Assembly: GCA_947627195.1 (NCBI GenBank)
Contig: CANQVC010000003.1
Coordinates: 1 to 64,000, forward strand
DNA length: 64,000 bases
Reading direction: 5' to 3'
DNA from: an uncultured Bacilli bacterium
GTDB taxonomy: Bacteria; Bacillota_I; Bacilli_A; ML615J-28; CAG-698
Shown here: positions 50,026-64,000 of the stretch, piece by piece
Position numbering within the stretch: position 1 is the first letter of the stretch
Layout: each line of letters opens with the position of its first letter
Position numbers and translations under genes: made by a program
The notes under the pieces: model-generated
The model's input: only the letters and a program-made list of their open reading frames with translations
Databases searched by the model: none
Told to the model about the DNA's origin: nothing

Positions 50026-51006
50026 CTATTTCATTCCTGAATGTGCCATTGTTTCCATAACTTGTGATTGAGAAATAACAAACACAACAATTGGAATAAT
50101 AATCATAATTAAACTTACAGCAGCAAGTGTTCCTTGTCTTGCAGCACCAGCTGTCGCAATTTGACTTAAAGCATAACTTACCATCTTGAAATCTTCACGA
50201 TAGATTGTTGTGGAACCTGAGTTTGCCCACAAACTTTGGAATAGTAAGATTATTAATGTAACCCACGCAGGTTTAACAAGTGGCATTACAATTGTCCAAT
50301 AAATTCTAAATTCACTAGCGCCATCTATTTTAGCTGCTTCTATTAAACTTGTTGGTATTTGTTCCATGAATTGTTTCATTAAGAATAATCCCATTGAATA
50401 AGCAAAGGCAGGTAAAATAATTGACCAATATGAATCAATCAAATGTAACCAATTTAATACCATATAGTTTGGAATAGCTGTTACTGATGATGGGAACATC
50501 AATGAATAAACAACAAGACCAAATATTAATGCACCACCTGGTACTTTATATTTTGCAAGTGGATAAGCACACATTGAAGCAATTATTACATGTCCAAATG
50601 TTCCAAGAATTGTTACAAAAATAGTATTGAAGAAGTAACGACTAAATGGAACAAGTGATGAGCCTAAGGCGTTTGCTAAATCAGAAAAGTTATCAAGAGT
50701 TGGGTTCTTTACAAAAAATCTTGGAGGGTATAGGAAAATTTCATCTAGAGGTTTAAAAGCATTTGATACTGTTAAAACTAAAGGTAAAATACTTAATATA
50801 CCAAATAATGCTAAAAAGACAAATAAGGCAATATCTCCACGAAGAGAACGGTTAACTCTTTTTCTTTTCTTTGAACGCATTTGAACTTTTAAATCACTGA
50901 TTTCGGCGAAAGGACGGGAATCAATTTTTTTCGACTTACGTTCATTACGGTCAAGCTTTTGCTTTTTTTCTTTTTTCTCTTTCTTCTCTTTAGCCACCCT
51001 AATCAC
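50026..51006 (-). CDS. carbohydrate ABC permease (MalG type) with basic N-terminus
   Basis: Permease of 326 residues with six helices and EAA loop LIEAAKIDGASEFRIYWTIVMP. The first ~55 residues are strongly basic (KEKKEKKEKKQK and further Lys/Arg), in contrast to the acidic extension of the other MalG-type subunit in the operon. The listed GTG start overlaps the previous gene by 8 bases; a GTG nine bases downstream is also possible. It pairs with the permease at 50999-51994. Confidence 0.88.
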   Translation of the reverse strand: MIRVAKEKKEKKEKKQKLDRNERKSKKIDSRPFAEISDLKVQMRSKKRKRVNRSLRGDIALFVFLALFGILSILPLVLTVSNAFKPLDEIFLYPPRFFVKNPTLDNFSDLANALGSSLVPFSRYFFNTIFVTILGTFGHVIIASMCAYPLAKYKVPGGALIFGLVVYSLMFPSSVTAIPNYMVLNWLHLIDSYWSIILPAFAYSMGLFLMKQFMEQIPTSLIEAAKIDGASEFRIYWTIVMPLVKPAWVTLIILLFQSLWANSGSTTIYREDFKMVSYALSQIATAGAARQGTLAAVSLIMIIIPIVVFVISQSQVMETMAHSGMK

Positions 51007-51994
51007 CCAACTTTCTAATAATCTTTTGAATTAATTTGTTCAATAAAATTGATGCGACAAACAATATCGTTGCAATAGCTGATGCATAACCCATTTCAAA
51101 ACGTAAACTACCATAATCTGTTAAGTGGTTTACAATTGTATGACCAGCATAAGATACTGAAGGGAAACCAGCTAAAGATGTTGTAATAGAACCTACTCCT
51201 AAAGCAGAAGATATTTGAATAACGGCACTAAACATTAGTTGTGGTTTTAATTGTGGTAAAGTAATATACCATAATTCTTGCCAACGATTCTTTACTCCAT
51301 CGACAGCTGCTGCTTCATATAGTGTTTTATCTACACCTTTTAAACCAGCTATTAATGCTAAGAAGTTAACACCTAAACTCATCCATAATTGAACAATAAT
51401 TACGATTGGTAAAATGTATTTCGCATTTGTTAACCAAGTAATTGGTTGAGAAATAAATCCCCATGACATTAAGAACGAGTTAGCATATCCATACATATCA
51501 CTTGAGAATATTAATGTCCAAATAGTAATGGCATTTCCTGAAAGAGATGGTGCATAGAAAACTAAGGTCATGATGGTTCTTAATTTACCAGGTAATTCAT
51601 TAATTAACCATGCCATAACAAATGACATTAAATAACCAAGTGGTCCACATATAACTGCTATAATTAATGTATTCTTAACAGCTGTTATAAATATTTCATC
51701 ATCTAAAAATAAAGTTAAATAGTTTTTAAATCCTAACCATGAAGGAGCTTCTAACATATTAAAGTAGGTGAAACTTAAGCAGAAACTCATAACTACAGGA
51801 ACGACTGTAAATAATGTAAATAGAATAACATAAGGTAACATCATTAAATATAATGTTCTATTTAAATATAATTTACGTCTTAATGGTTTTTTTCTACTCC
51901 AATGGTCGATTTTAATACCAGTTCGATGTTTCCAATCTAAGAATTGGTGCCATTTTTCTTTGAACCAGTTTTCTTTTTTTACTGTTTCTTCCAT
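50999..51994 (-). CDS. carbohydrate ABC permease (MalF type)
   Basis: Permease of 331 residues. A basic cytoplasmic start of about 45 residues is followed by six transmembrane helices; the EAA loop is YEAAAVDGVKNRWQELWYIT. AGGAGG lies 7 bases before the ATG. It directly follows the solute-binding protein gene, so these two permeases with 52005-55172 form the most obvious uptake system. Confidence 0.9.
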   Translation of the reverse strand: MEETVKKENWFKEKWHQFLDWKHRTGIKIDHWSRKKPLRRKLYLNRTLYLMMLPYVILFTLFTVVPVVMSFCLSFTYFNMLEAPSWLGFKNYLTLFLDDEIFITAVKNTLIIAVICGPLGYLMSFVMAWLINELPGKLRTIMTLVFYAPSLSGNAITIWTLIFSSDMYGYANSFLMSWGFISQPITWLTNAKYILPIVIIVQLWMSLGVNFLALIAGLKGVDKTLYEAAAVDGVKNRWQELWYITLPQLKPQLMFSAVIQISSALGVGSITTSLAGFPSVSYAGHTIVNHLTDYGSLRFEMGYASAIATILFVASILLNKLIQKIIRKLGD

Positions 51995-52004
51995 TATTTT
52001 CCTC

Positions 52005-55000
52005 CTACTTCTTTGCTGCTTTCGTTGATGTTGCTAAACCAAATTCTTCACGTTTTCTGTCAATTTCACTATTGATTGTTAAGATGTAATCAGATAATGT
52101 TTGACGTGGGTTTTCGTTATTATTAACAACATAACGGAATGCATTTTCAAGGTTACGTCCAGTATAATATCCACCAGCAACTTCTGGAACACCAATTGTT
52201 TGTTCCCATTGATCTAACAATACGGCTTGTTCTTTTGTCGTCCATGATAAACGTTTAAATGCTTCAACATTTGCAGTATTATGACGAGCTGCAGCTCCTA
52301 AAATTGCTTCAATTTCACGAGCATATCCAGCTTGTGTATCAGCACTTGTGAACCATTGCATGAACTTCCATGATTCAAATGGTACATCTGTTTGTTTCAT
52401 CATTATTAATGCTGTACCACTTGCAGCACCTAAATAATCAATTTCACCATTTTCTTTTTCAATACCAGGAAGTAATGCAAAATCCCATTTACCACGAATT
52501 TCTGGTGCAGAAACAGCTAATGTATTATAAATATCATAATTAACAATACCAATTGGTGTTTCACCACTACGGAAACGGTTAACGAAACTTGCTTGAAGTG
52601 GGAAACTATAATCAGTATAGAAACTAGTCCAAAATTCGAATGCTCTCATTGCAGCTTCAGAATCAAAATTTGATTCAACATATTCTTCACCAAATTCATT
52701 AATAGATGTTCTATAAAATGCTGATTCTCTAGCATTATCAACTGATTGATATAAATATGATGCAAATATTTGGTTAACAACACTTGATGAACCTACTGTA
52801 TTCAATGGTAAATAACATTCAAAATGTTGAATCTGTAATTCAGGAATTAAATTGATTAAATTATCCCAAGTTCTTGGAACTGACCAATCATATTCTTCAA
52901 ACATATCAGTACGATAGAATAATACTAAGAAACTTTGAGTATATGGAAGAGCATAATAACCACCTTCAAATTCATATGGTACCATCGCACTTTGTTTGAA
53001 CCACATTGTTTCTTCATTTAAGGCAATTTCTTCAAATGAAGGGACATTATTATAACCAATTTCATCTAATGCAGATCTTGAGAAAGTTGTTAAATCAAAT
53101 GTAGCACCACGTAAAGCATAATTTACAGGAGTACCATTTGCTACGTTAATTGCAACATCTGGACCACGCCCTGCAAGTGTTGCCGTTAATAATACATCTG
53201 GAGAAACAACTTTTAGACTTACATTAACTCCATTTAATACACTATTAGGATTACTTCTTTCTTCATTAATCATACTACTAATTGCATTAGCTTGTTCACG
53301 TCCTTGGTTTTCACTAGTTAATAGCCATACATCTACATCTTTCCATTCACTATTAGCTTCAGTCAAACCAACACTTTCATAATCATAGAAGAATGATAAA
53401 ACAAATCCTTTAATATTAAACCATAGACTACCAAAGGCATTTGGATTTGCTTTTGGAAGTTTGTAATCAGAACTATGAACTACAAGATAATCAATTGATA
53501 AAGCTTGTTGACTTACATCTAGAATCCATGTTCCTAATGAAGAAATATTTGTACTAAAATCAGATAGATTTTTTTGAATTTTATAATGATCTTTAATAAA
53601 TTGTTTTAATTGAACTGACATTGTTTCAAGTGATGCTGTTTCACTACTCTTTTCTCCAGAAATTTCAGTAATTTTTTTGGAAACATCAGTTAATGTATCA
53701 ACAGCTTCTTGGAATTTTTCTTTTGCTTCAGCAATGAATTCTTTTCCACTGTCACCACCAAAATAATTAATGTATGGGTCAGGATTAATACCAGTCTTTT
53801 GAATGATACGACGATATAATTTATTTAAATCATCAATGACATATTGAACACGACTAATTTGTGTTGCATAATCACCTAAAGTACATTCTAATGTAATTGT
53901 ATGTTTTCCTTTAGTTAGGTAGAATAAGAATGCTTCTTTATCAGTACCTAATGTAACGATACTCCAGTCACTATTGTAAACAAATTTACAATTTTGTGCT
54001 TCTGCAAAAGGTGTTTCACCATCAATAGCAAGTTTTCTTGTTGAGAATAATCCACGGGAAACATTTTGTTTACAACGAAGTGATATTTCATACATGCCTT
54101 CTTCTTGAACTTCAAAGTCCCATGTAATCCAATCACCTGGTGTACTCCATTTAGCACCACCAATTGTATTTAATACTAATTTAACTGGTGATGATTTTGT
54201 TTTATTATGGTTTTCATCAATACAAACATTATATGCACTTGTTCTATCAGATACAGCATAAATTGTTGAAGAAGATCTAACAACATTAGTTGTACGACCA
54301 TCTTCTTCAGGTCCACCTTCACCTTGAATTTGATATGCTACTTTACCACTAACAACTGGTTTACCTTGATATTGTGCTTTGTATTCTTCATATGAAATAT
54401 ATTTTTCAATACTTGTAACAAATACTTTAGAAACTAACATATTTTCACGAATTGATTCAATACCAATTGTATGAGCACCAGCTGTAAAATAAATCATATA
54501 TGGTTCTGTCACATATCCAACTTGATCATATACATATGAAGCTCTTAATTCAGGTTTTTCAACTTGTTTTGGTTTAATTTCATTTCCAGCTAAATCGACT
54601 AATTTACTACTTCCATCAGTAAATATTCTTTGGAATGCAACATTTGATAAATCGCTATATGGTATTTCTCCATCTATTTCAATTGCACGTTCAATATTAG
54701 CACCACCACTTGGTTCACCATCAGGATATACTTCTTCAGTTGATGGCATATATTCTAACAATAAATTATAAAAACCATTTTCAGGAATAACAACATCATA
54801 AATTAATTTTCCTAATGTTCCACTATAATTATAACTAACTTCATTAATTGTATGTGTAGCTCCTGTTGTAGTATCAAGTCCACTATTAGCATCTTGAGTT
54901 AATGTTGCATTATATTCAGCAGGAATTGCTTTATTTTCACCATTAACAACATAAGGATGATTTTCTGGGAAATTTTGTGGATAACTTTCCACATATTCTT

Positions 55001-55172
55001 TGTATTCACCACTTAATTCACTACCTCTAAGTGGAGTTGAATTAGACAATTTATGTCCACTACCAAAGCTTTGAATAACAACAACAAGAAGAAAAACAAA
55101 TACAGCAACGCCTATAGCAATTAACGCTATTCTTTTTATCATCTTGCTCGATATTTTAATTTTGCGTTTCAT
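52005..55172 (-). CDS. solute-binding protein with carbohydrate-binding-like modules, TM-anchored
   Basis: Protein of 1055 residues. The start is ATG 55172, with AAGGAGG upstream; the upstream in-frame start lies before that site. An N-terminal helix (about 14-35) without lipobox Cys should anchor it. Two jelly-roll-like modules follow (NGFYNLLLEYMPSTEE; EEGMYEISLRCKQN), then a helical region (about 465-545), then an extracellular solute-binding domain from about 615 (DVWLLTSENQGREQANAI; AGRGPDVAINVANGTPVNYA). Usual binding proteins have about 430 residues and a lipid anchor, so the extra modules are unusual. It overlaps the hexosaminidase gene by 17 bases; the ligand may be a hexosamine-containing glycan. 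Confidence 0.82.
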   Translation of the reverse strand: MKRKIKISSKMIKRIALIAIGVAVFVFLLVVVIQSFGSGHKLSNSTPLRGSELSGEYKEYVESYPQNFPENHPYVVNGENKAIPAEYNATLTQDANSGLDTTTGATHTINEVSYNYSGTLGKLIYDVVIPENGFYNLLLEYMPSTEEVYPDGEPSGGANIERAIEIDGEIPYSDLSNVAFQRIFTDGSSKLVDLAGNEIKPKQVEKPELRASYVYDQVGYVTEPYMIYFTAGAHTIGIESIRENMLVSKVFVTSIEKYISYEEYKAQYQGKPVVSGKVAYQIQGEGGPEEDGRTTNVVRSSSTIYAVSDRTSAYNVCIDENHNKTKSSPVKLVLNTIGGAKWSTPGDWITWDFEVQEEGMYEISLRCKQNVSRGLFSTRKLAIDGETPFAEAQNCKFVYNSDWSIVTLGTDKEAFLFYLTKGKHTITLECTLGDYATQISRVQYVIDDLNKLYRRIIQKTGINPDPYINYFGGDSGKEFIAEAKEKFQEAVDTLTDVSKKITEISGEKSSETASLETMSVQLKQFIKDHYKIQKNLSDFSTNISSLGTWILDVSQQALSIDYLVVHSSDYKLPKANPNAFGSLWFNIKGFVLSFFYDYESVGLTEANSEWKDVDVWLLTSENQGREQANAISSMINEERSNPNSVLNGVNVSLKVVSPDVLLTATLAGRGPDVAINVANGTPVNYALRGATFDLTTFSRSALDEIGYNNVPSFEEIALNEETMWFKQSAMVPYEFEGGYYALPYTQSFLVLFYRTDMFEEYDWSVPRTWDNLINLIPELQIQHFECYLPLNTVGSSSVVNQIFASYLYQSVDNARESAFYRTSINEFGEEYVESNFDSEAAMRAFEFWTSFYTDYSFPLQASFVNRFRSGETPIGIVNYDIYNTLAVSAPEIRGKWDFALLPGIEKENGEIDYLGAASGTALIMMKQTDVPFESWKFMQWFTSADTQAGYAREIEAILGAAARHNTANVEAFKRLSWTTKEQAVLLDQWEQTIGVPEVAGGYYTGRNLENAFRYVVNNNENPRQTLSDYILTINSEIDRKREEFGLATSTKAAKK

Positions 55173-57009
55173 GAGCTCCTCCTTCATAAAAATCTAAACT
55201 CTTTATAGCAAATTCTTTCAGTTTTTCTAAATTTAAAATAGTTTTATCTAAACCACTATATTTATTACGAATTAACCAAATTCTTTTTAATTCCAATATT
55301 AATCCATCTATCGAACCAATTGCTTCTTTTAGACAAGCAAGGCGATATTCGATATCAACTTTTGGTTGATGAGCTAGACTAACTTTCATAATTGTTTTTA
55401 AAACATTAATTGAATGAATAATTTCATCTTTAACTAATGAATCAACATCAGCAAATGATAATTCTTTACATTTTTGTTCAAAGAAATCATTCAATAAAAT
55501 AAATTCTTCTAAACTTAAATAATTATATTTCATTTTAGAAGTGAAATATTGAATTGGATCTTTTTCTTTTAAAGCATTTAATGCCCAAACCATTGAATAA
55601 AATGTTACACTACCATTACCTGTATAATGTGGTTCATATTTAAAATATGTACCAATATCCATCAATATATCAGAAATTAATTCTTTGGAATCATGGAAGA
55701 TATAATGATTTAAATAATATTTTAAATCTTTATAAGTTCCTTCTTTACAACGATAACTTAATAAACCAGCATAAGCTAAAGGAGCAAATGAAATTGGTAA
55801 ATGTTGCAAATGACCAACATCTCCCCAATCAGTAAGAATAACTCCCATTCCACCTAATTTATAAATATCCCAAACAGCATTATTAATTGTTTCTAACCAG
55901 TCTTGAGTTCGACCTAATAATGTGCACCATGTAGTAGTTCCTGGAGCAGCCATAAATTTAACCCCAGCATTTTTTAATTTTGATAAATGATCGTAGAAAG
56001 GATATTCAGCATCATATCCCCAATCAACAAATATCATATCTTTAGGAATTTTTGATAAGACATTGTCATGACGAATAAGAACATCTCCCCAAATTAATGG
56101 TGTTTTATGATATTTCTTTATTTCTTCATATGCTTTTATTGTATAATCTAAATATACATTTTCTTCGCCATATTTTTCACATTCTTCTTTAGATTTATCT
56201 TTTCCTAATTCGAATGGTTCATCAAAATTCATATGAAAATAAGATGATTTAAAATGAGGGAGCATATCGTGATACATTTTTTTAACTAATTCAATTGACT
56301 TTTCATCTAAAGGATTTAAAGTACTAGGTTTCCGATGTGAGCCCCATAAATCAATTCCATTAGGTGCTTCAGCAAGTTCTTTAAATTCATCTTTTTCAAG
56401 CCAATCAGTCATATGTCCAAATCCATTTTGATTTGGTACAAAATCTATTTCGTGTAATAAAGCATAATCTTCAATTTCATGATATTCATCAAGACTTAAA
56501 TATGAATCTTTTTCTAGATATTGTTTAAATGATTTATATTCAAAACTAAATCCTTCAACATATAATTCTAAATGATTCATTTTTAAATCACTCATTATAT
56601 CAATAATTTTCTTTACAGTTTCTACCTTTGGCACTTTATTACGACTAATATCGTAAGTAAATCCTCTAATTTCAATATCAGGACCATCTTCAATATGAAC
56701 ACATTTCATAAAAGGGTGATATATCTGTTTTAACGTTTTCACAGCATAATAAAAACCACTATTACTATTAGCATATATTGTAATTTTGTTTGGTTCAATA
56801 TCAAGTTCGTAATATTGATCTTTTAAAGATTTTTTTGTTATTAATAAAAAGTTGCTTTCCTCTTTAGATACTTGTTTATATTTTATAAATTCATTTAATT
56901 CTTGTATAACAGATTTTATGTTTATATCAAAGTAAATAAAGAATTCTGTTATATTTAATTCACCAAGTAAATCCTTTTGAATTTTTACTCTAGGGTAAAT
57001 GAGATACAT
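55156..57009 (-). CDS. GH20-like beta-N-acetylhexosaminidase
   Basis: Cytoplasmic glycosidase of 617 residues, no signal peptide. A small alpha/beta N-terminal domain (1-105) is followed by the barrel: RGFTYDISRNKVP, then a catalytic Asp-Glu pair in MNFDEPFELG (near 273-282), the usual GH20 signature. LIWGDVL and FVDWGYD, and late Trp residues (TTTWCT; TDWGD), would line the sugar pocket. GH20 enzymes remove terminal GlcNAc or GalNAc. GGAGG precedes ATG 57009. First gene of the uptake operon, so imported oligosaccharides are probably cut inside the cell, and products would flow to NagB. Confidence 0.85.
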   Translation of the reverse strand: MYLIYPRVKIQKDLLGELNITEFFIYFDINIKSVIQELNEFIKYKQVSKEESNFLLITKKSLKDQYYELDIEPNKITIYANSNSGFYYAVKTLKQIYHPFMKCVHIEDGPDIEIRGFTYDISRNKVPKVETVKKIIDIMSDLKMNHLELYVEGFSFEYKSFKQYLEKDSYLSLDEYHEIEDYALLHEIDFVPNQNGFGHMTDWLEKDEFKELAEAPNGIDLWGSHRKPSTLNPLDEKSIELVKKMYHDMLPHFKSSYFHMNFDEPFELGKDKSKEECEKYGEENVYLDYTIKAYEEIKKYHKTPLIWGDVLIRHDNVLSKIPKDMIFVDWGYDAEYPFYDHLSKLKNAGVKFMAAPGTTTWCTLLGRTQDWLETINNAVWDIYKLGGMGVILTDWGDVGHLQHLPISFAPLAYAGLLSYRCKEGTYKDLKYYLNHYIFHDSKELISDILMDIGTYFKYEPHYTGNGSVTFYSMVWALNALKEKDPIQYFTSKMKYNYLSLEEFILLNDFFEQKCKELSFADVDSLVKDEIIHSINVLKTIMKVSLAHQPKVDIEYRLACLKEAIGSIDGLILELKRIWLIRNKYSGLDKTILNLEKLKEFAIKSLDFYEGGAHETQN

Positions 57010-57573: not shown

Positions 57574-57611
57574 AAAAGCTGATAATGTCATTTAAGATCA
57601 TTATCAACTTT
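57574..57611 (-). terminator. terminator overlapping the end of queH
   Basis: Arms AAGTTGATAATG and CATTATCAGCTT with an 11-base loop, followed by TTTTATT on the minus strand. The 5' arm codes for the last residues of QueH and the stop codon is in the loop, so the last translating ribosome may influence termination. Confidence 0.85.
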
Positions 57612-58205
57612 ATTACTTTCTAACAAAGAATATTTACATCCACAATATTCTTGACGGTATAAATTATATTTTTTCGATAATTGAATAGATTTTTTATATC
57701 CTTCTTTTTTCTTAAAATTGGAATAGAAAAAAGGAATATCATAAACTTTAGAAAAATGTTCACCAAGTTCATTTATCCAATCACTATTTTTATAAGGGCT
57801 AATTGAAAGAGTTGTTGTGAAAAAATCATAACCTAATCTTTTAGCTTCTTTAGCTGTTTCTTCTAAACGGAAGCTATAACAACAATAACATCTTTTACTT
57901 CCTTCTTTTAAATGTTCAAACCCTAATATAGCATTATCATATCTAAGTGGGTCATACTTTCCCTCGATGAATTTAAATTCTAGAGGAATCTTTTTAAATT
58001 GTTCTTTTCTTTTATCATATTCTTCTTTAGGAAAAATATTAGGATTATCATAAAAAATAGTAATTGCAAAATATTTATTTAAAATGTCCAATACTTCAGT
58101 AGAACAAGGTGCACAACAAGCATGAATTAATATTTTAGGTTTAGGATTTTGTGGTTCTGATTTAAGAAATTCAGTATAAGCTAAATAGCTATCAACTTTA
58201 AACAT
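57588..58205 (-). CDS. queH: epoxyqueuosine reductase QueH
   Basis: Last step of queuosine tRNA modification, by the QueH (non-QueG) route. The 205-residue protein has the diagnostic HACCAPCS motif (C30, C31, C34), a second cysteine cluster RCYCCYSFRLEETA near 102-115, and a late CGC near 186; these bind the iron-sulfur cluster and second iron. It lies 1 base after the GHL10 gene. The link with wall genes is probably only by operon. Confidence 0.93.
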   Translation of the reverse strand: MFKVDSYLAYTEFLKSEPQNPKPKILIHACCAPCSTEVLDILNKYFAITIFYDNPNIFPKEEYDKRKEQFKKIPLEFKFIEGKYDPLRYDNAILGFEHLKEGSKRCYCCYSFRLEETAKEAKRLGYDFFTTTLSISPYKNSDWINELGEHFSKVYDIPFFYSNFKKKEGYKKSIQLSKKYNLYRQEYCGCKYSLLESNKVDNDLK

Positions 58206-58206
58206 T

Positions 58207-59517
58207 TTAATAAGGTTTTACATCCTTTGTCCAAGCTTTTAATAATAATTCTCTAGCTTTAACTAATGTTGGTTTATCATTTTTAACAAAGTCATGATAT
58301 GTAAAGAAAACACATCCTTTAACATTTTCATATAAATCATTAACTTTCAATTGGTTAATTATTTCTTCAGGATTTCCCCAATTGCCATGATCAGTATAAC
58401 GATAAATTCCTTGACCAATATATAATTTAACATTAGTCTTTTTTGCTGCCCAACTCCACCAATCAACTAAATCAGCATATTTCACAATTTCAATTGTTTT
58501 GCCATCTTCTGCTACTTTAAAACTATCTAAGGAAAAATAATCTTGAGGAACAACATAATCTATCCAACCTTTTTCCATCCATAGATATATATCAGCATAT
58601 AATCCTTCATAACATTGGAAACATGAATGATGATTATGTGAGCCATATTCCCATCCGCCTTCTTTACCAGCTTCAGCGAAATGACTAGAATGAGTACGAT
58701 AAATACCAAATGGACTAATACCAAATTCTACTTTATGATCTAACGTATTTAACGCATCATGAATTTTCTTAATCATGGTATTAACATTTTCTCTTCTAAA
58801 ATCATCTAAAGAAAGTTCAGGGTGTAATGCTTGATGTTTTTTTTCTTCAAGTGGATCACTAATTGGATCATATGGATAAAAATAATCATCGATATGAATA
58901 GCTTTAATTGGATATTTTTTCGCAATTTCTAATACTGTATCAACAAGATAATCTTGAACTTTCGAACTAGCTGGATCTAATATTAATTTATGTTCAGATG
59001 TTTCAATAACACAATCAGGATATTTACGAGCAAAATTTTTAGGACTTAATTTTTCTTGTAAGAATTGTTCTTTTGTCATGTTAATTTCATTTAATTTTGT
59101 ACCTCTAACACGATAAGGATTCATCCATGCATGTACATCAATTTCAGCTTCTTTTGCTTTATTAACAAAATAACCAAATAAATCAAATCCAGGATCTTCA
59201 TCTTCAGTTTTTGTCTTACTTAAATAACAACTCCATGGATTAATATCTGATTGGTAAAAGGCATCACATCCTGGACGTACTTGAAATACAACAGTATTTA
59301 AATGATATTTTTTACAAGTTTTAATGACATCATCCATTTGTTCTTTGTATTCTTCAATAGAATCACAAGGATGTATATCAATATTTTCCACAGTAGAAAA
59401 CCAAACACCTCTAGTTTCTTGCTTTTTTTCTTTCACATTTTCGTTAATCATGACAGGTTTATCAGTACCATAATATGTAATAAATCCTTCACGTTCAACA
59501 CATTCAATTTTCTTCAT
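58207..59517 (-). CDS. GHL10-family glycosyl hydrolase-like protein
   Basis: Protein of about 436 residues in the GHL10/DUF187 family (YngK-like; barrel enzymes thought to act on wall glycans). Typical pieces: RGVWFSTVENIDIHP, NTVVFQVRPGCDAFY, DVHAWMNPYRV, IHIDDYFYP, and WWSWAAKKTNVKLYIGQGIYRY. No signal peptide, so cytoplasmic unless exported otherwise. The start is set at ATG 59517, 7 bases after AGGAG; the ATG at 59532 would lie over that site. The gene overlaps the LD-carboxypeptidase gene. Confidence 0.85.
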   Translation of the reverse strand: MKKIECVEREGFITYYGTDKPVMINENVKEKKQETRGVWFSTVENIDIHPCDSIEEYKEQMDDVIKTCKKYHLNTVVFQVRPGCDAFYQSDINPWSCYLSKTKTEDEDPGFDLFGYFVNKAKEAEIDVHAWMNPYRVRGTKLNEINMTKEQFLQEKLSPKNFARKYPDCVIETSEHKLILDPASSKVQDYLVDTVLEIAKKYPIKAIHIDDYFYPYDPISDPLEEKKHQALHPELSLDDFRRENVNTMIKKIHDALNTLDHKVEFGISPFGIYRTHSSHFAEAGKEGGWEYGSHNHHSCFQCYEGLYADIYLWMEKGWIDYVVPQDYFSLDSFKVAEDGKTIEIVKYADLVDWWSWAAKKTNVKLYIGQGIYRYTDHGNWGNPEEIINQLKVNDLYENVKGCVFFTYHDFVKNDKPTLVKARELLLKAWTKDVKPY

Positions 59518-60454
59518 CATTATTCTCCTCATATAATTCTTCTAAAATTGTTATTTCTTGTTTATTAGCATCTAATCTTACTTTTAAGCCAATTGGTAAA
59601 TTAATAAAAGGAAATTGATGACCAGATGCAAAATGATAAATAACAGGTTTATTTAAATTTTGAAAATATTCTTGAATTAATTCATCAACTTCAGGTTCAT
59701 CATCATCTTTATGACAATTTGTGAAATGTCCAAAGATAAATCCTTTAGCTTCATCAAGATATCCCCCTAATCTTAATTGAGCAAACATCCGATCAATATT
59801 ATATGGTTGTTCATCAACTTCTTCAATAAAAACAATTTTATCTTTAAAATCAATTTCATAAGGAGTACCTATCAAATCGGATATTAAACATAAGTTGCCA
59901 CCACTCATTTCTCCTTCAACAATTCCTCCACATAATGTTTTAGCATCATTATAAGGATTTTTTAAAACACGGTTTAAAGTGTTAGTTGTCAATAATGTTT
60001 TAAATTCATTTAAGGAAAATTCATCACATTTAGGACTTGATATAAATATTCCAACTTGTCCATGAACCGTTGGTAAATAACTATATTTATATAAATTATT
60101 TAATAATACAGTAATATCACTAAATCCCATAAATAATTTAGGATGTTTTTTAATCATTTCATAATCTATTTTATCAACAATTCTACTTGCTCCACAGCCA
60201 CCTTTATAACATATAATAGCTTTTATATTAGGATCTAAAAACATTTGATGAATGTCATTTATTCTTTCTTCATCATTTCCTGCTAAATAGCCATGTTGTA
60301 AATAACATGTTTTGCCAAATTGAACATTATAACCAAAAGAAGAAAAAATATCTTCAATTTTTTTCATTCTTTCTTGTTGTTTATTTCTTGAAGAAGGGCA
60401 AATAAAACCAATTGTATCCCCTTTCTTCAACATTCTTACTTGACATTTATTCAT
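59504..60454 (-). CDS. ldcA: LD-carboxypeptidase (S66 family)
   Basis: Serine peptidase of 316 residues related to LdcA/MccF, which removes the terminal D-Ala of wall tetrapeptides in the cytoplasm. Motifs: GFICPSSRNKQ, YKGGCGASRI, catalytic Ser in MGFSDIT (about 112), EGEMSGGNLCLI, FIEEVDE, and a late His in ASGHQFPFINLPIG. ATG 60454 is preferred; a GTG overlapping the upstream gene by 8 bases is possible. MccF-like activity (microcin cleavage) is an alternative, but the operon partners favour wall recycling. Confidence 0.88.
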   Translation of the reverse strand: MNKCQVRMLKKGDTIGFICPSSRNKQQERMKKIEDIFSSFGYNVQFGKTCYLQHGYLAGNDEERINDIHQMFLDPNIKAIICYKGGCGASRIVDKIDYEMIKKHPKLFMGFSDITVLLNNLYKYSYLPTVHGQVGIFISSPKCDEFSLNEFKTLLTTNTLNRVLKNPYNDAKTLCGGIVEGEMSGGNLCLISDLIGTPYEIDFKDKIVFIEEVDEQPYNIDRMFAQLRLGGYLDEAKGFIFGHFTNCHKDDDEPEVDELIQEYFQNLNKPVIYHFASGHQFPFINLPIGLKVRLDANKQEITILEELYEENNDEEN

Positions 60455-60455
60455 A

Positions 60456-61154
60456 TTAATCACTAAATGAATTAGGTTTTACAGTAAATTTGCCATAATC
60501 TTGGACATTAAATGCTTGAGCATGTTCACATTTAGCTAAGCATCCACGAACATAAGTTAAATGAGTATAATAATTATAATATTTAAAATCTTTACTGTTC
60601 ATAATAAACCAATGTTTAGCAATAGCTTTTGTCCATAAATCATAACCTTCAGAACAATTAACTAAAATATATGGATCAAATCCTATTCTATCTTCCCAGT
60701 TTTCACAGAAATATACTGGAGAATACCATCTTTCAAGAGGTACTTTATCCCCCATATCAATGCCTGCATAAAATTGAGCATCAACTACAATTTTAGAACA
60801 TGTTGCATGATCTTTATGCATACTATTTTTCCAATGAGTGAAAATTGCATTTGGACGATATTTACGAATTAAAGCTGCAACTTGTAATCTAACTTCATCA
60901 TTATCAGGAAGTTCACCATCACAATAAGGGAATACAATTGATTCACCATTTAACATTTCCGCAAATTCTTTTGCTTCTTTTACTTTTTGCACACGATATT
61001 CTTCAACAGTCATTGTTTTGGGATTTCCTCTTTCACCTGCTGTTAAAGCAACAGTAATAATTCTATCACCTATTAATGCTTGTGTAGCTAATACACAACC
61101 ACATGTTAACTCCATATCACCGATATGTCCACCAATTGCCATAAATGTTTTCAT
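60456..61154 (-). CDS. PIG-L/LmbE-type deacetylase
   Basis: Zinc deacetylase of 232 residues. The first metal motif reads GGHIGDMEL (H10, D13), a variant of the usual AHPDDE; the second is HKDH (113-116). The family removes N-acetyl groups from sugars or amino-sugar conjugates. In this operon it could act on a GlcNAc- or MurNAc-containing fragment, but bacillithiol-like or other conjugates are also possible. Starts 30 bases after the serine hydrolase gene with GGAG upstream. Confidence 0.88.
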   Translation of the reverse strand: MKTFMAIGGHIGDMELTCGCVLATQALIGDRIITVALTAGERGNPKTMTVEEYRVQKVKEAKEFAEMLNGESIVFPYCDGELPDNDEVRLQVAALIRKYRPNAIFTHWKNSMHKDHATCSKIVVDAQFYAGIDMGDKVPLERWYSPVYFCENWEDRIGFDPYILVNCSEGYDLWTKAIAKHWFIMNSKDFKYYNYYTHLTYVRGCLAKCEHAQAFNVQDYGKFTVKPNSFSD

Positions 61155-61184: not shown

Positions 61185-62240
61185 TTATTCAAACATTGTA
61201 TCTAAATGAGTAAAGATATAATTTGCTAATCTTGCTCTGAATGGAATAATTTTATTATTTTGTCTTGTAGGATGTACACGGTTACTTAAAACGCAATATG
61301 CTACTTTATTTTGACGATCAATGACAATATTAGTGCCAGTAAAACCTGTATGCATAATCGTTTCATCACTAGCAAATTCTCCACAACAACATTGTTTTCC
61401 TTTCACAATCCAACCTATTCCTCTTCGATATGTATCTAAACTAATTCCTTCTTTTTCTTCTACTTGGGGTTTAAAGAATAAATCGATACTTTGTTTAGAC
61501 AATATTCTTTTTCCTTTGTACATACCATTATCTAAAATCATTTTAAGAAAATGACTTAAATCTTTAACACAACTGAATAAACCAGCATGGCCTGCAACAC
61601 CATCTAATGTATGAGCAACTTCATCATGAACATAGCCACGATCTATTTTGTCACCTCTATCTTCAGTAGGGGCACATCTATTTACATCAGTTGGACAATA
61701 CCCTGAATCAAACATTTCTAAAGGTTCAAGCAAGTTCTCTTTCACAAACTTATCTAATGGCATATTACTTACTTTTTCAATAATCCATCCAAGTAAAATA
61801 AATCCTAAATCAGAATAAACCATTTTAGTGTTTTTTTCATATTCCTTTTCACAACTCATGATATTATCATATAATTCTTGTTTGGACAAGAAATGTCCAT
61901 TTATTAAATCAGCTGGTAAACCAGAAGTATGAGTTAATAAATCCCATATTGTAACATCTTTATGAATAAAATCAGGAAGAAATACTGATACATAATCATA
62001 TAAACGAATCAATCCTCTTTCAGCTAACATCATTATTGAACTTGTTGTGGCAACAACTTTTGTACATGATGCCATATCATAAAGAGTATTAATATCATTA
62101 TCTTCTTCAACTGGATATAAACTCTTTTTGCCATATGCATGAAAATAAGTTTTGTCATTAATTATTAAACATAATGTTGCTCCAGGAAATACTCCATCTT
62201 TAACTGCTTTAGTCATTATTTCATTAACTTTTTCAATCAT
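61185..62240 (-). CDS. beta-lactamase-fold serine hydrolase
   Basis: Protein of 351 residues of the class C beta-lactamase/D-aminopeptidase fold. SxxK is S58-C-T-K61, the YxN-type motif is Y142-S-D, and the third motif is HTGFTG near 292-297. No signal peptide, so it should work in the cytoplasm, unlike a true beta-lactamase or DD-peptidase. It could act as a D-amino peptidase or amide hydrolase on wall peptides or related esters. It lies 8 bases after the LysA fusion gene. Confidence 0.85.
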   Translation of the reverse strand: MIEKVNEIMTKAVKDGVFPGATLCLIINDKTYFHAYGKKSLYPVEEDNDINTLYDMASCTKVVATTSSIMMLAERGLIRLYDYVSVFLPDFIHKDVTIWDLLTHTSGLPADLINGHFLSKQELYDNIMSCEKEYEKNTKMVYSDLGFILLGWIIEKVSNMPLDKFVKENLLEPLEMFDSGYCPTDVNRCAPTEDRGDKIDRGYVHDEVAHTLDGVAGHAGLFSCVKDLSHFLKMILDNGMYKGKRILSKQSIDLFFKPQVEEKEGISLDTYRRGIGWIVKGKQCCCGEFASDETIMHTGFTGTNIVIDRQNKVAYCVLSNRVHPTRQNNKIIPFRARLANYIFTHLDTMFE

Positions 62241-62248
62241 ATTGCCTC

Positions 62249-64000
62249 CTAATCTTCTGATGTCATAACTATCTTATCATGATAACGACGATAGAAATTT
62301 TGGTAACATATTTTATCAATATCTTCTTCACTTAATCCTATTTTTTGCATTCCTTCTATAATACGATAAGCAAATGTTGCATCTTTTACTTCTTCTAAAT
62401 TACTATTAGGAAAATCAGATAAATAATCCATAAAATCAAATCCAAAGCACACATTATCAACGCCCATAATAGAAATAGCATATTTTAAATGTTCTAAAAA
62501 GCGATCTAATGTTTGATTGTTTTCATCTTTATCAACAAAATTATTAGCTAATGTCAATCCTAATAAACCATCAACTTTCTTTAAAGCTTTCATTTGATCA
62601 TCAGTGACATTTCTAACATGAGAACATAATTTCTTTACATTTCCATGGGAATAAATAATATTTTTATTAACTACTTTTAAAGCATCATAAAAACTTTTTT
62701 CGTTTAGATGAGCTAAATCAATAATCATTCCTAATTGTTCCATTCTTTTTAGTAGACGAATTCCTTCTTCAGTAAAGCCTCTTTCAGGATTAGATTTAGC
62801 TCCTGTTGCATATTTATTTTCTTCATTCCATGTTACCATAGCATGACGAAATCCCATATTGTATAAAATATCAATATCTTCAACACATTTTAAATTTCTT
62901 AAGCCTTCTAGTCCTAATACTACTTTAAAATTGGCAAGTTCTTTTAAATTGATTTCTTTTAATGCTATTTTACATGCTTCAATTAAGTCAAAGTCATTTG
63001 GTGAATACATTGTAAATATACTACCTTTAATAACACTTTGTGATAATTGTGGGACATGATATTTTTCAAAACGATGATCAATTCCTTTTGTTTTGTTTGT
63101 CCATAAATCATATAACATATCACTATGACAATCAAACATACGTTTTATCGGAGTAGAAATCATTGTTCGACATAAATCTTCATATTCTTCACGACGGATT
63201 GTTAAATGGACATGATCATTATTAACAAAAATAACAGCTCCACGTACCATGCCATTGTAATTTGAACTCATAGAATAACCATATGCTCCAGTACAATATG
63301 TAACTAAAACATCATTTTCTTTAACTTTTGTTAATGGATAATCAGTAACAATAATATCCCCAGATTCACAGCATGGTCCAACTACATCAACAATTTCTTT
63401 ATCTTGAATATTTTCATCAACATGATTAGCTATATCAACACTATATTTGGCTTGATATAAAGCAGGGCGAATATTATCAGTCATTCCGCCATCAACGAAA
63501 ACATATTTTTTACCTCCATATGTTTTCTTTGTTCCACCAACTGTATATAATGTGAAGCCAGCATCACCAACAATACTTCGACCAGGTTCAATCATGACTT
63601 TTTTTAAACTTAAATGATATTTATCAATAAATGAATCAATAGTATTAGTAATGGCTTTAACCATTGATGCTAAATCTATTTCAGTATCTTCATTAGTATA
63701 TTGAATGCCAAATCCTCCACCAAGATTTAAAACTTCAAATGAACAATTATTTCTTTCTTCTACATCTTTCATGAAATTTAAAAGGGTACTTGTGGCATCT
63801 TGAAAACTTTTAGGTTGATGAATATTCGAACCAATATGACTATGAAAACCTAATAATGTTAAATATTGGCTTTCATTTGCTTTTTTAACTATTTTATCAA
63901 TTTTATCTTTATCAAAAATTGATTCACCAAACTTACTACTTAATAAAGATGTTTGAATATATTCATGAGTATGAGCACTAATACCAGGATTAACGCGTAA
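62249..64000 (-). CDS. lysA: diaminopimelate decarboxylase-M19 dipeptidase fusion (5' end outside window)
   Basis: Reading frame of at least 583 residues that continues past the right edge. The visible first part is the LysA barrel and sheet domain: RVNPGISAHTHEY, HSHIGSNIH, LGGGFGIQY, EPGRSIVGDAG, CESGDI and GAYGYSMSSNYN; the PLP-lysine lies outside the window. About residues 290-583 of this part are a membrane-dipeptidase (M19) barrel: metal motif DCHSD, LEGLRNL with bridging Glu, IDLAH, YSHGN and HVRN, and GFDF. LysA makes lysine from meso-DAP; M19 enzymes split dipeptides, including those with D-residues. One chain could therefore free and use DAP or amino acids from wall peptides. The frame is open across the junction. 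Confidence 0.9.
   Translation of the reverse strand, partial: LRVNPGISAHTHEYIQTSLLSSKFGESIFDKDKIDKIVKKANESQYLTLLGFHSHIGSNIHQPKSFQDATSTLLNFMKDVEERNNCSFEVLNLGGGFGIQYTNEDTEIDLASMVKAITNTIDSFIDKYHLSLKKVMIEPGRSIVGDAGFTLYTVGGTKKTYGGKKYVFVDGGMTDNIRPALYQAKYSVDIANHVDENIQDKEIVDVVGPCCESGDIIVTDYPLTKVKENDVLVTYCTGAYGYSMSSNYNGMVRGAVIFVNNDHVHLTIRREEYEDLCRTMISTPIKRMFDCHSDMLYDLWTNKTKGIDHRFEKYHVPQLSQSVIKGSIFTMYSPNDFDLIEACKIALKEINLKELANFKVVLGLEGLRNLKCVEDIDILYNMGFRHAMVTWNEENKYATGAKSNPERGFTEEGIRLLKRMEQLGMIIDLAHLNEKSFYDALKVVNKNIIYSHGNVKKLCSHVRNVTDDQMKALKKVDGLLGLTLANNFVDKDENNQTLDRFLEHLKYAISIMGVDNVCFGFDFMDYLSDFPNSNLEEVKDATFAYRIIEGMQKIGLSEEDIDKICYQNFYRRYHDKIVMTSED

Follow-up and report, generated by a model that had tools for sequence, protein, structure and literature searches.

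Both of the enzymes joined in the protein described here are known, and it is their pairing, together with the diaminopimelate (DAP)-to-lysine salvage route proposed below, that looks new. By sequence, the closest solved relative of its DAP decarboxylase (LysA) half is LysA of M. tuberculosis (1hkv, 259 bits), and the solved relatives of its dipeptidase half include GliJ (5lwz) and Lmo2462 (3lu2), which are grouped with the renal-dipeptidase-like protein 3id7 and DPEP1 (1itq) among the membrane/renal dipeptidases of family M19 (PF01244). Characterised M19 enzymes cleave L,L- or L,D-dipeptides, some of them with a preference for L,D substrates. A LysA joined to a second enzyme is found in the bifunctional aspartate kinase/DAP decarboxylase (PRK08961, NF006515), where the partner opens the biosynthetic pathway. 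The nearest systems handling muropeptides are LdcA/NagZ/AmpD recycling in E. coli and the murQRP-amiE-nagZ MurNAc recycling cluster of B. subtilis, which includes the amidase AmiE (YbbE) (PMC5061867). For the bacterial orders concerned here, repeated wall loss and incomplete DAP-type pathways have been described and muropeptide scavenging has been predicted to be necessary (PMC10868615), lysine and DapF receiving no mention in the main text of that study. The literature searched contained nothing relevant on a LysA–dipeptidase fusion or on LysA in Acholeplasma.

The window, a stretch of 64,000 nucleotides, comes from a member of a bacterial family that is related to Acholeplasma and consists of small, partly wall-less organisms. 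At its end an open minus-strand frame runs past the window edge, and the continuation of the genome completes it as an ATG-initiated ORF of 734 residues free of internal stops (contig C3:62249-64453, the 5' end of the gene being position 64453), of which the window covers residues 152-734 and the stop codon (Table 1). The original prediction that LysA motifs are followed in a single frame by M19 motifs (DCHSD, the bridging Glu and HVRN) is confirmed by the profile matches as well as by the motif positions, and the sequence beyond the window supplies the missing part of the LysA domain. The LysA half matches TIGR01048 over residues 8-429 (444.8 bits against a cut-off of 297.9; model positions 4-414 of 417) and Orn_Arg_deC_N with 189 bits, and the M19 half matches PF01244 with 202 bits against a cut-off of 26; Pfam and NCBIfam reveal no third domain. 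The LysA motifs start at residues 61 (YATKAF, containing the PLP lysine Lys64), 245 (GGGFG), 289 (EPGRS), 362 (CESGD) and 389 (GAYxYS); among 11 aligned fusions Lys64 is invariant and the other motifs are conserved apart from single changes. In the M19 half, DCHSD begins at residue 441 and HVRN at 612, with the bridging Glu516 lying in GLEGLRN, and His443, Asp445, Glu516, His582, His603, Arg614 and Asp673 are invariant in the same alignment, so that the metal ligands, on whose conservation the original prediction had been made to depend, are retained. Both halves are under purifying selection, with dN/dS of about 0.15 for LysA and about 0.08 for M19 in a comparison of two congeners whose dS is near saturation. 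The predicted structure of the fusion (pLDDT 75, pTM 0.51) was made from a shallow alignment and is poor in the C-terminal half of LysA, and its domain geometry is unreadable.

Table 1. Features of the locus, in window coordinates.
Feature	Position	Strand	Basis and remarks
LysA-M19 fusion gene, visible part	62249..64000	-	ORF list, genome continuation
LysA (DAP decarboxylase) part, residues 152-430	63164..64000	-	TIGR01048; PLP lysine and N-terminal third beyond window
Interdomain linker, residues 431-437	63143..63163	-	Junction DNA; internal ATG (KRM-FDCHSD) close by, Shine-Dalgarno absent
M19 dipeptidase part, residues 438-734	62252..63142	-	PF01244; short form, full metal ligand set
Beta-lactamase-fold serine hydrolase	61185..62240	-	PF00144, 176 bits; next operon gene; no signal peptide
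PIG-L family deacetylase	60456..61154	-	PF02585; operon conservation
S66 LD-carboxypeptidase	59504..60463	-	PF02016, PF17676
GHL10 protein, Cwp19 homologue, no signal peptide	58207..59532	-	PF02638, 170 bits
QueH	57588..58205	-	PF02677; in gene string of some species
GH20 family glycosidase, no signal peptide	55156..57009	-	PF00728; synteny
Sugar-type ABC transporter: solute-binding protein (52005-55187) and two permeases	50026..55187	-	SBP_bac_1/8, BPD_transp_1

Compared with LysA proper (TIGR01048; 1hkv), the N-terminal half of the fusion is full-length and has every motif, whereas the protein adds a C-terminal dipeptidase and occurs in genomes without DapA and DapB. With PRK08961 it has in common that LysA is joined to a second enzyme, but it scores only 197.6 bits against a cut-off of 802 and lacks the kinase domain, and thus falls outside the aspartate kinase–LysA family; its partner is instead a hydrolase that would supply DAP from peptides. 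The M19 half shares metal ligands and sequence family with the membrane/renal dipeptidases, from which it differs in the shortness and divergence of its N-terminal part, in lacking a signal peptide and in being attached to LysA.

The fusion gene stands in a string of genes, dusB, lysA-M19, beta-lactamase fold, (GNAT), PIG-L, S66, GHL10, (QueH) and GH20, whose order about 20 species share, apart from some gaps, whether their lysA and M19 are fused or not; in L074, from another family of the order, the S66 gene adjoins lysA and M19 adjoins two GHL10 genes. The beta-lactamase-fold hydrolase, which among NCBIfam models most resembles PBP4B (NF002968, 165 bits, below its cut-off), is a candidate muropeptide amidase or esterase; B. 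subtilis AmiE (YbbE) has the same fold, and the amidase role is our guess. The S66 protein matches structures of murein tetrapeptide carboxypeptidase and of MccF, the GH20 protein is a candidate intracellular N-acetylglucosaminidase, and QueH probably lies outside the salvage pathway. The GHL10 protein matches C. difficile Cwp19 (5oq2, E 6e-63), reported to be a lytic transglycosylase (PMC6016235). Like the recycling systems of B. subtilis and E. coli, the operon brings together a hydrolase, a glucosaminidase and an LD-carboxypeptidase for muropeptides; it differs from both in that GH20 replaces the GH3 enzyme NagZ and in the addition of a Cwp19-like transglycosylase, PIG-L and the predicted conversion of DAP to lysine. 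Judged by N-terminal hydropathy, the S66, GHL10, GH20, PIG-L and beta-lactamase-fold proteins lack the hydrophobic signal that is present in the nearby solute-binding protein, and most likely act on imported material; the ABC transporter of Table 1 possibly imports wall fragments or glycans, and oligopeptide-binding proteins encoded elsewhere in the genome are further transporter candidates. A wall-peptide salvage operon with an LD-carboxypeptidase and a GHL10 protein, as originally predicted, is supported, and more strongly than at first proposed, by the linkage in these species, by the match to Cwp19, by the absence of DapA and DapB with retention of DapF, and by the lack of MurE and MraY in seven of the 12 fused genomes.

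The window genome encodes DapF with both catalytic cysteines intact, whereas DapA and DapB are absent from this 98%-complete genome, matches being obtained in control genomes. Across the order, again with positive controls, DapA is absent in 39 of 43 genomes and DapB, at the curated cut-off, in all but two. The pathway is therefore cut upstream of DAP, which must be supplied from outside. Since G034, from another family of the order, keeps a dapF-asd-dapA-dapB cluster, the loss of DapA and DapB is probably secondary. Within the family, LysA and M19 occur together in 20 genomes, LysA alone in none, M19 alone in one and neither in six (Fisher p 2e-5), and LysA tracks DapF (p 0.002) but not MurE/MraY; these p values are indicative only, because the genomes are related and not independent. 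Three genomes (G013, G015 and G016) have LysA without a DapF match.

Referring to these observations, we consider it probable that LysA-M19 is a bifunctional salvage enzyme which produces lysine from imported wall peptides in cooperation with DapF. In the predicted route, short wall peptides of other bacteria would enter the cell, and the muropeptides would be trimmed in the cytoplasm by the LD-carboxypeptidase, the Cwp19-like transglycosylase, the GH20 enzyme and the beta-lactamase-fold hydrolase, as their families suggest. The M19 half would then split a DAP dipeptide, most likely the L,D-dipeptide meso-DAP-D-Ala in view of the L,D preference of some M19 enzymes, into DAP and D-Ala; DapF, whose gene is present, would epimerise DAP between its LL and meso forms; and by its family membership the LysA half is predicted to decarboxylate meso-DAP to L-lysine. 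The joining of LysA and M19 may bring a kinetic gain by channelling. As no NlpC/P60 endopeptidase was found in the window genome, the step releasing DAP-D-Ala from the stem peptide, for which D-Glu-DAP has to be cut, is missing, extracellular or performed by another family. The salvage reading is favoured by the completeness of both domains with their conserved catalytic residues and by the tendency of LysA, M19 and DapF to stay or disappear as a set within the family; against it stand the M19 genes of Haploplasma modicum, other acholeplasmas and G024, which occur where LysA is absent, and the three genomes with LysA but no DapF match. It offers a concrete molecular route, open to testing, by which the scavenging of muropeptides predicted in wall-deficient Bacilli could proceed, would explain why DapF and LysA are retained in genomes without DAP synthesis, and would make the lysine supply of such bacteria depend on walled neighbours. 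More tentatively, we put forward the possibility that wall-less bacteria devoid of a DAP pathway make lysine from the walls of others, a repeatedly fused LysA–dipeptidase passing DAP from hydrolysis to decarboxylation in one protein.

The fusion is present in 12 of 28 family genomes, that of the window included, whereas lysA and M19 are adjacent as separate frames in seven, M19 occurs alone in one and neither gene is found in six; in G015 and G027 the locus is interrupted by contig ends. Those relatives that bear a name are assemblies of uncultured Bacilli, Mollicutes and Acholeplasmataceae, a part of them from rumen or rabbit samples, and none of 392 genomes drawn across the phylum carries the fusion outside the family. 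In the unfused G004, the lysA stop codon is followed by one base and then by the ATG of M19, and in the unfused G002 the two genes overlap as ATGA. G009, considered as a further fusion, was rejected: its junction reads as an in-frame TAA, then AAGGAGAATTTT, then ATG, the stop thus lying exactly between the genes, ahead of the Shine-Dalgarno sequence and start codon. In the fused L013, the former ribosome-binding site of M19 is now a translated linker (TTT AAG GAG GAA AAT ATG AAA), with similar translated Shine-Dalgarno sequences in L015, L008 and L010 of the one fused clade; the former ATG has become ATA or GTA in L011 and L012, the start codon is gone at the junction in L006, L007, L009 and L014, and the window copy has kept the ATG without the Shine-Dalgarno sequence.

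Abutting separate genes are likely to be the ancestral arrangement, from which the fusion would have arisen, probably on two or more occasions, when the stop codon separating the tandem lysA and M19 genes was lost. On the tree of both halves the fused state needs three changes of state. A single fused clade was rejected (AU p=0.02), which speaks against a single origin; a plain LG tree has the same outline, the deep branches being weakly supported. At least two fusion events are likely, although fission is also compatible with the tree. Leading from separate genes, by way of a ribosome-binding site that is now translated, to a linker that has eroded, the junctions clearly document the formation of a bifunctional enzyme.

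The same junctions bear on the possibility that the fusion is neutral, in which LysA and M19, as two co-transcribed salvage genes, act independently on unrelated substrates, M19 being a general L,D-dipeptidase and a source of amino acids and D-Ala, and in which the stop codon disappeared without functional meaning. With the unfused genes abutting or overlapping by a few bases, one mutation is enough, and the separate state persists in the seven family members mentioned above, mostly in the same operon. Neutrality is best argued from those acholeplasmas that have M19 but no LysA, where M19 must have a use of its own. However, the fusion has probably occurred repeatedly and the internal start has been lost in several lineages while both active sites were kept, and LysA and M19 co-occur tightly, so that we regard neutral fusion as rather unlikely, though of some weight. 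It is considerably less credible that LysA serves normal lysine synthesis while M19 recycles the murein peptides of the cell itself. The window genome does encode MraY and a MurE with the DNPR motif of DAP-adding enzymes, and so probably has a wall to recycle, to which part of the DAP may be directed. However, without DapA and DapB the usual route yields no net DAP, and both MurE and MraY are absent from 7 of the 12 fused genomes, in which the DAP is thus not derived from an own wall. An assembly or frameshift artefact merging two genes is next to impossible, since the fusion recurs in genomes that differ in study and habitat of origin, its linkers have drifted, and the copies share 82-55% identity with that of the window (82, 62, 60, 58 and so on to 55%), which speaks against both chance and assembly error. 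The original prediction had taken separate genes in close relatives as the sign of such an error; they do exist in some relatives, but the DNA here represents tandem genes fused later.

Several further features of these genomes deserve mention. MurE and MraY are found in the same 10 of the 28 family genomes (G000-G027), which suggests several losses of wall synthesis in this one family. G013 encodes, in addition to the fusion, a second, distant LysA-like decarboxylase (G013:C7:9186-10412, 28% identity). The DapF of G009 (L072:5269-6066, minus strand) scores above the family cut-off although its first catalytic cysteine is gone (IYSNG in place of MCGNG), and is possibly, by its sequence, a decaying or altered epimerase.

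M19 also occurs in other settings. It follows dusB, with LysA absent, in G024 (L036:3064-4682, plus strand), where the next gene resembles NagB (glucosamine-6-phosphate deaminase) by eye, and in the acholeplasmas L093, L137 (Haploplasma modicum) and L092, likewise without LysA, it is paired with a PIG-L deacetylase gene, after which comes a GNAT-like gene. Another family of the class has frames of 551-558 residues (L133:2323-3987 and L134:2233-3885, both on the minus strand; probably also in G324 and G341) that unite the head domain of poly(A) polymerase/CCA-adding enzyme (PF01743) with a full-length M19, and in L134 this fusion is adjoined by dapB.
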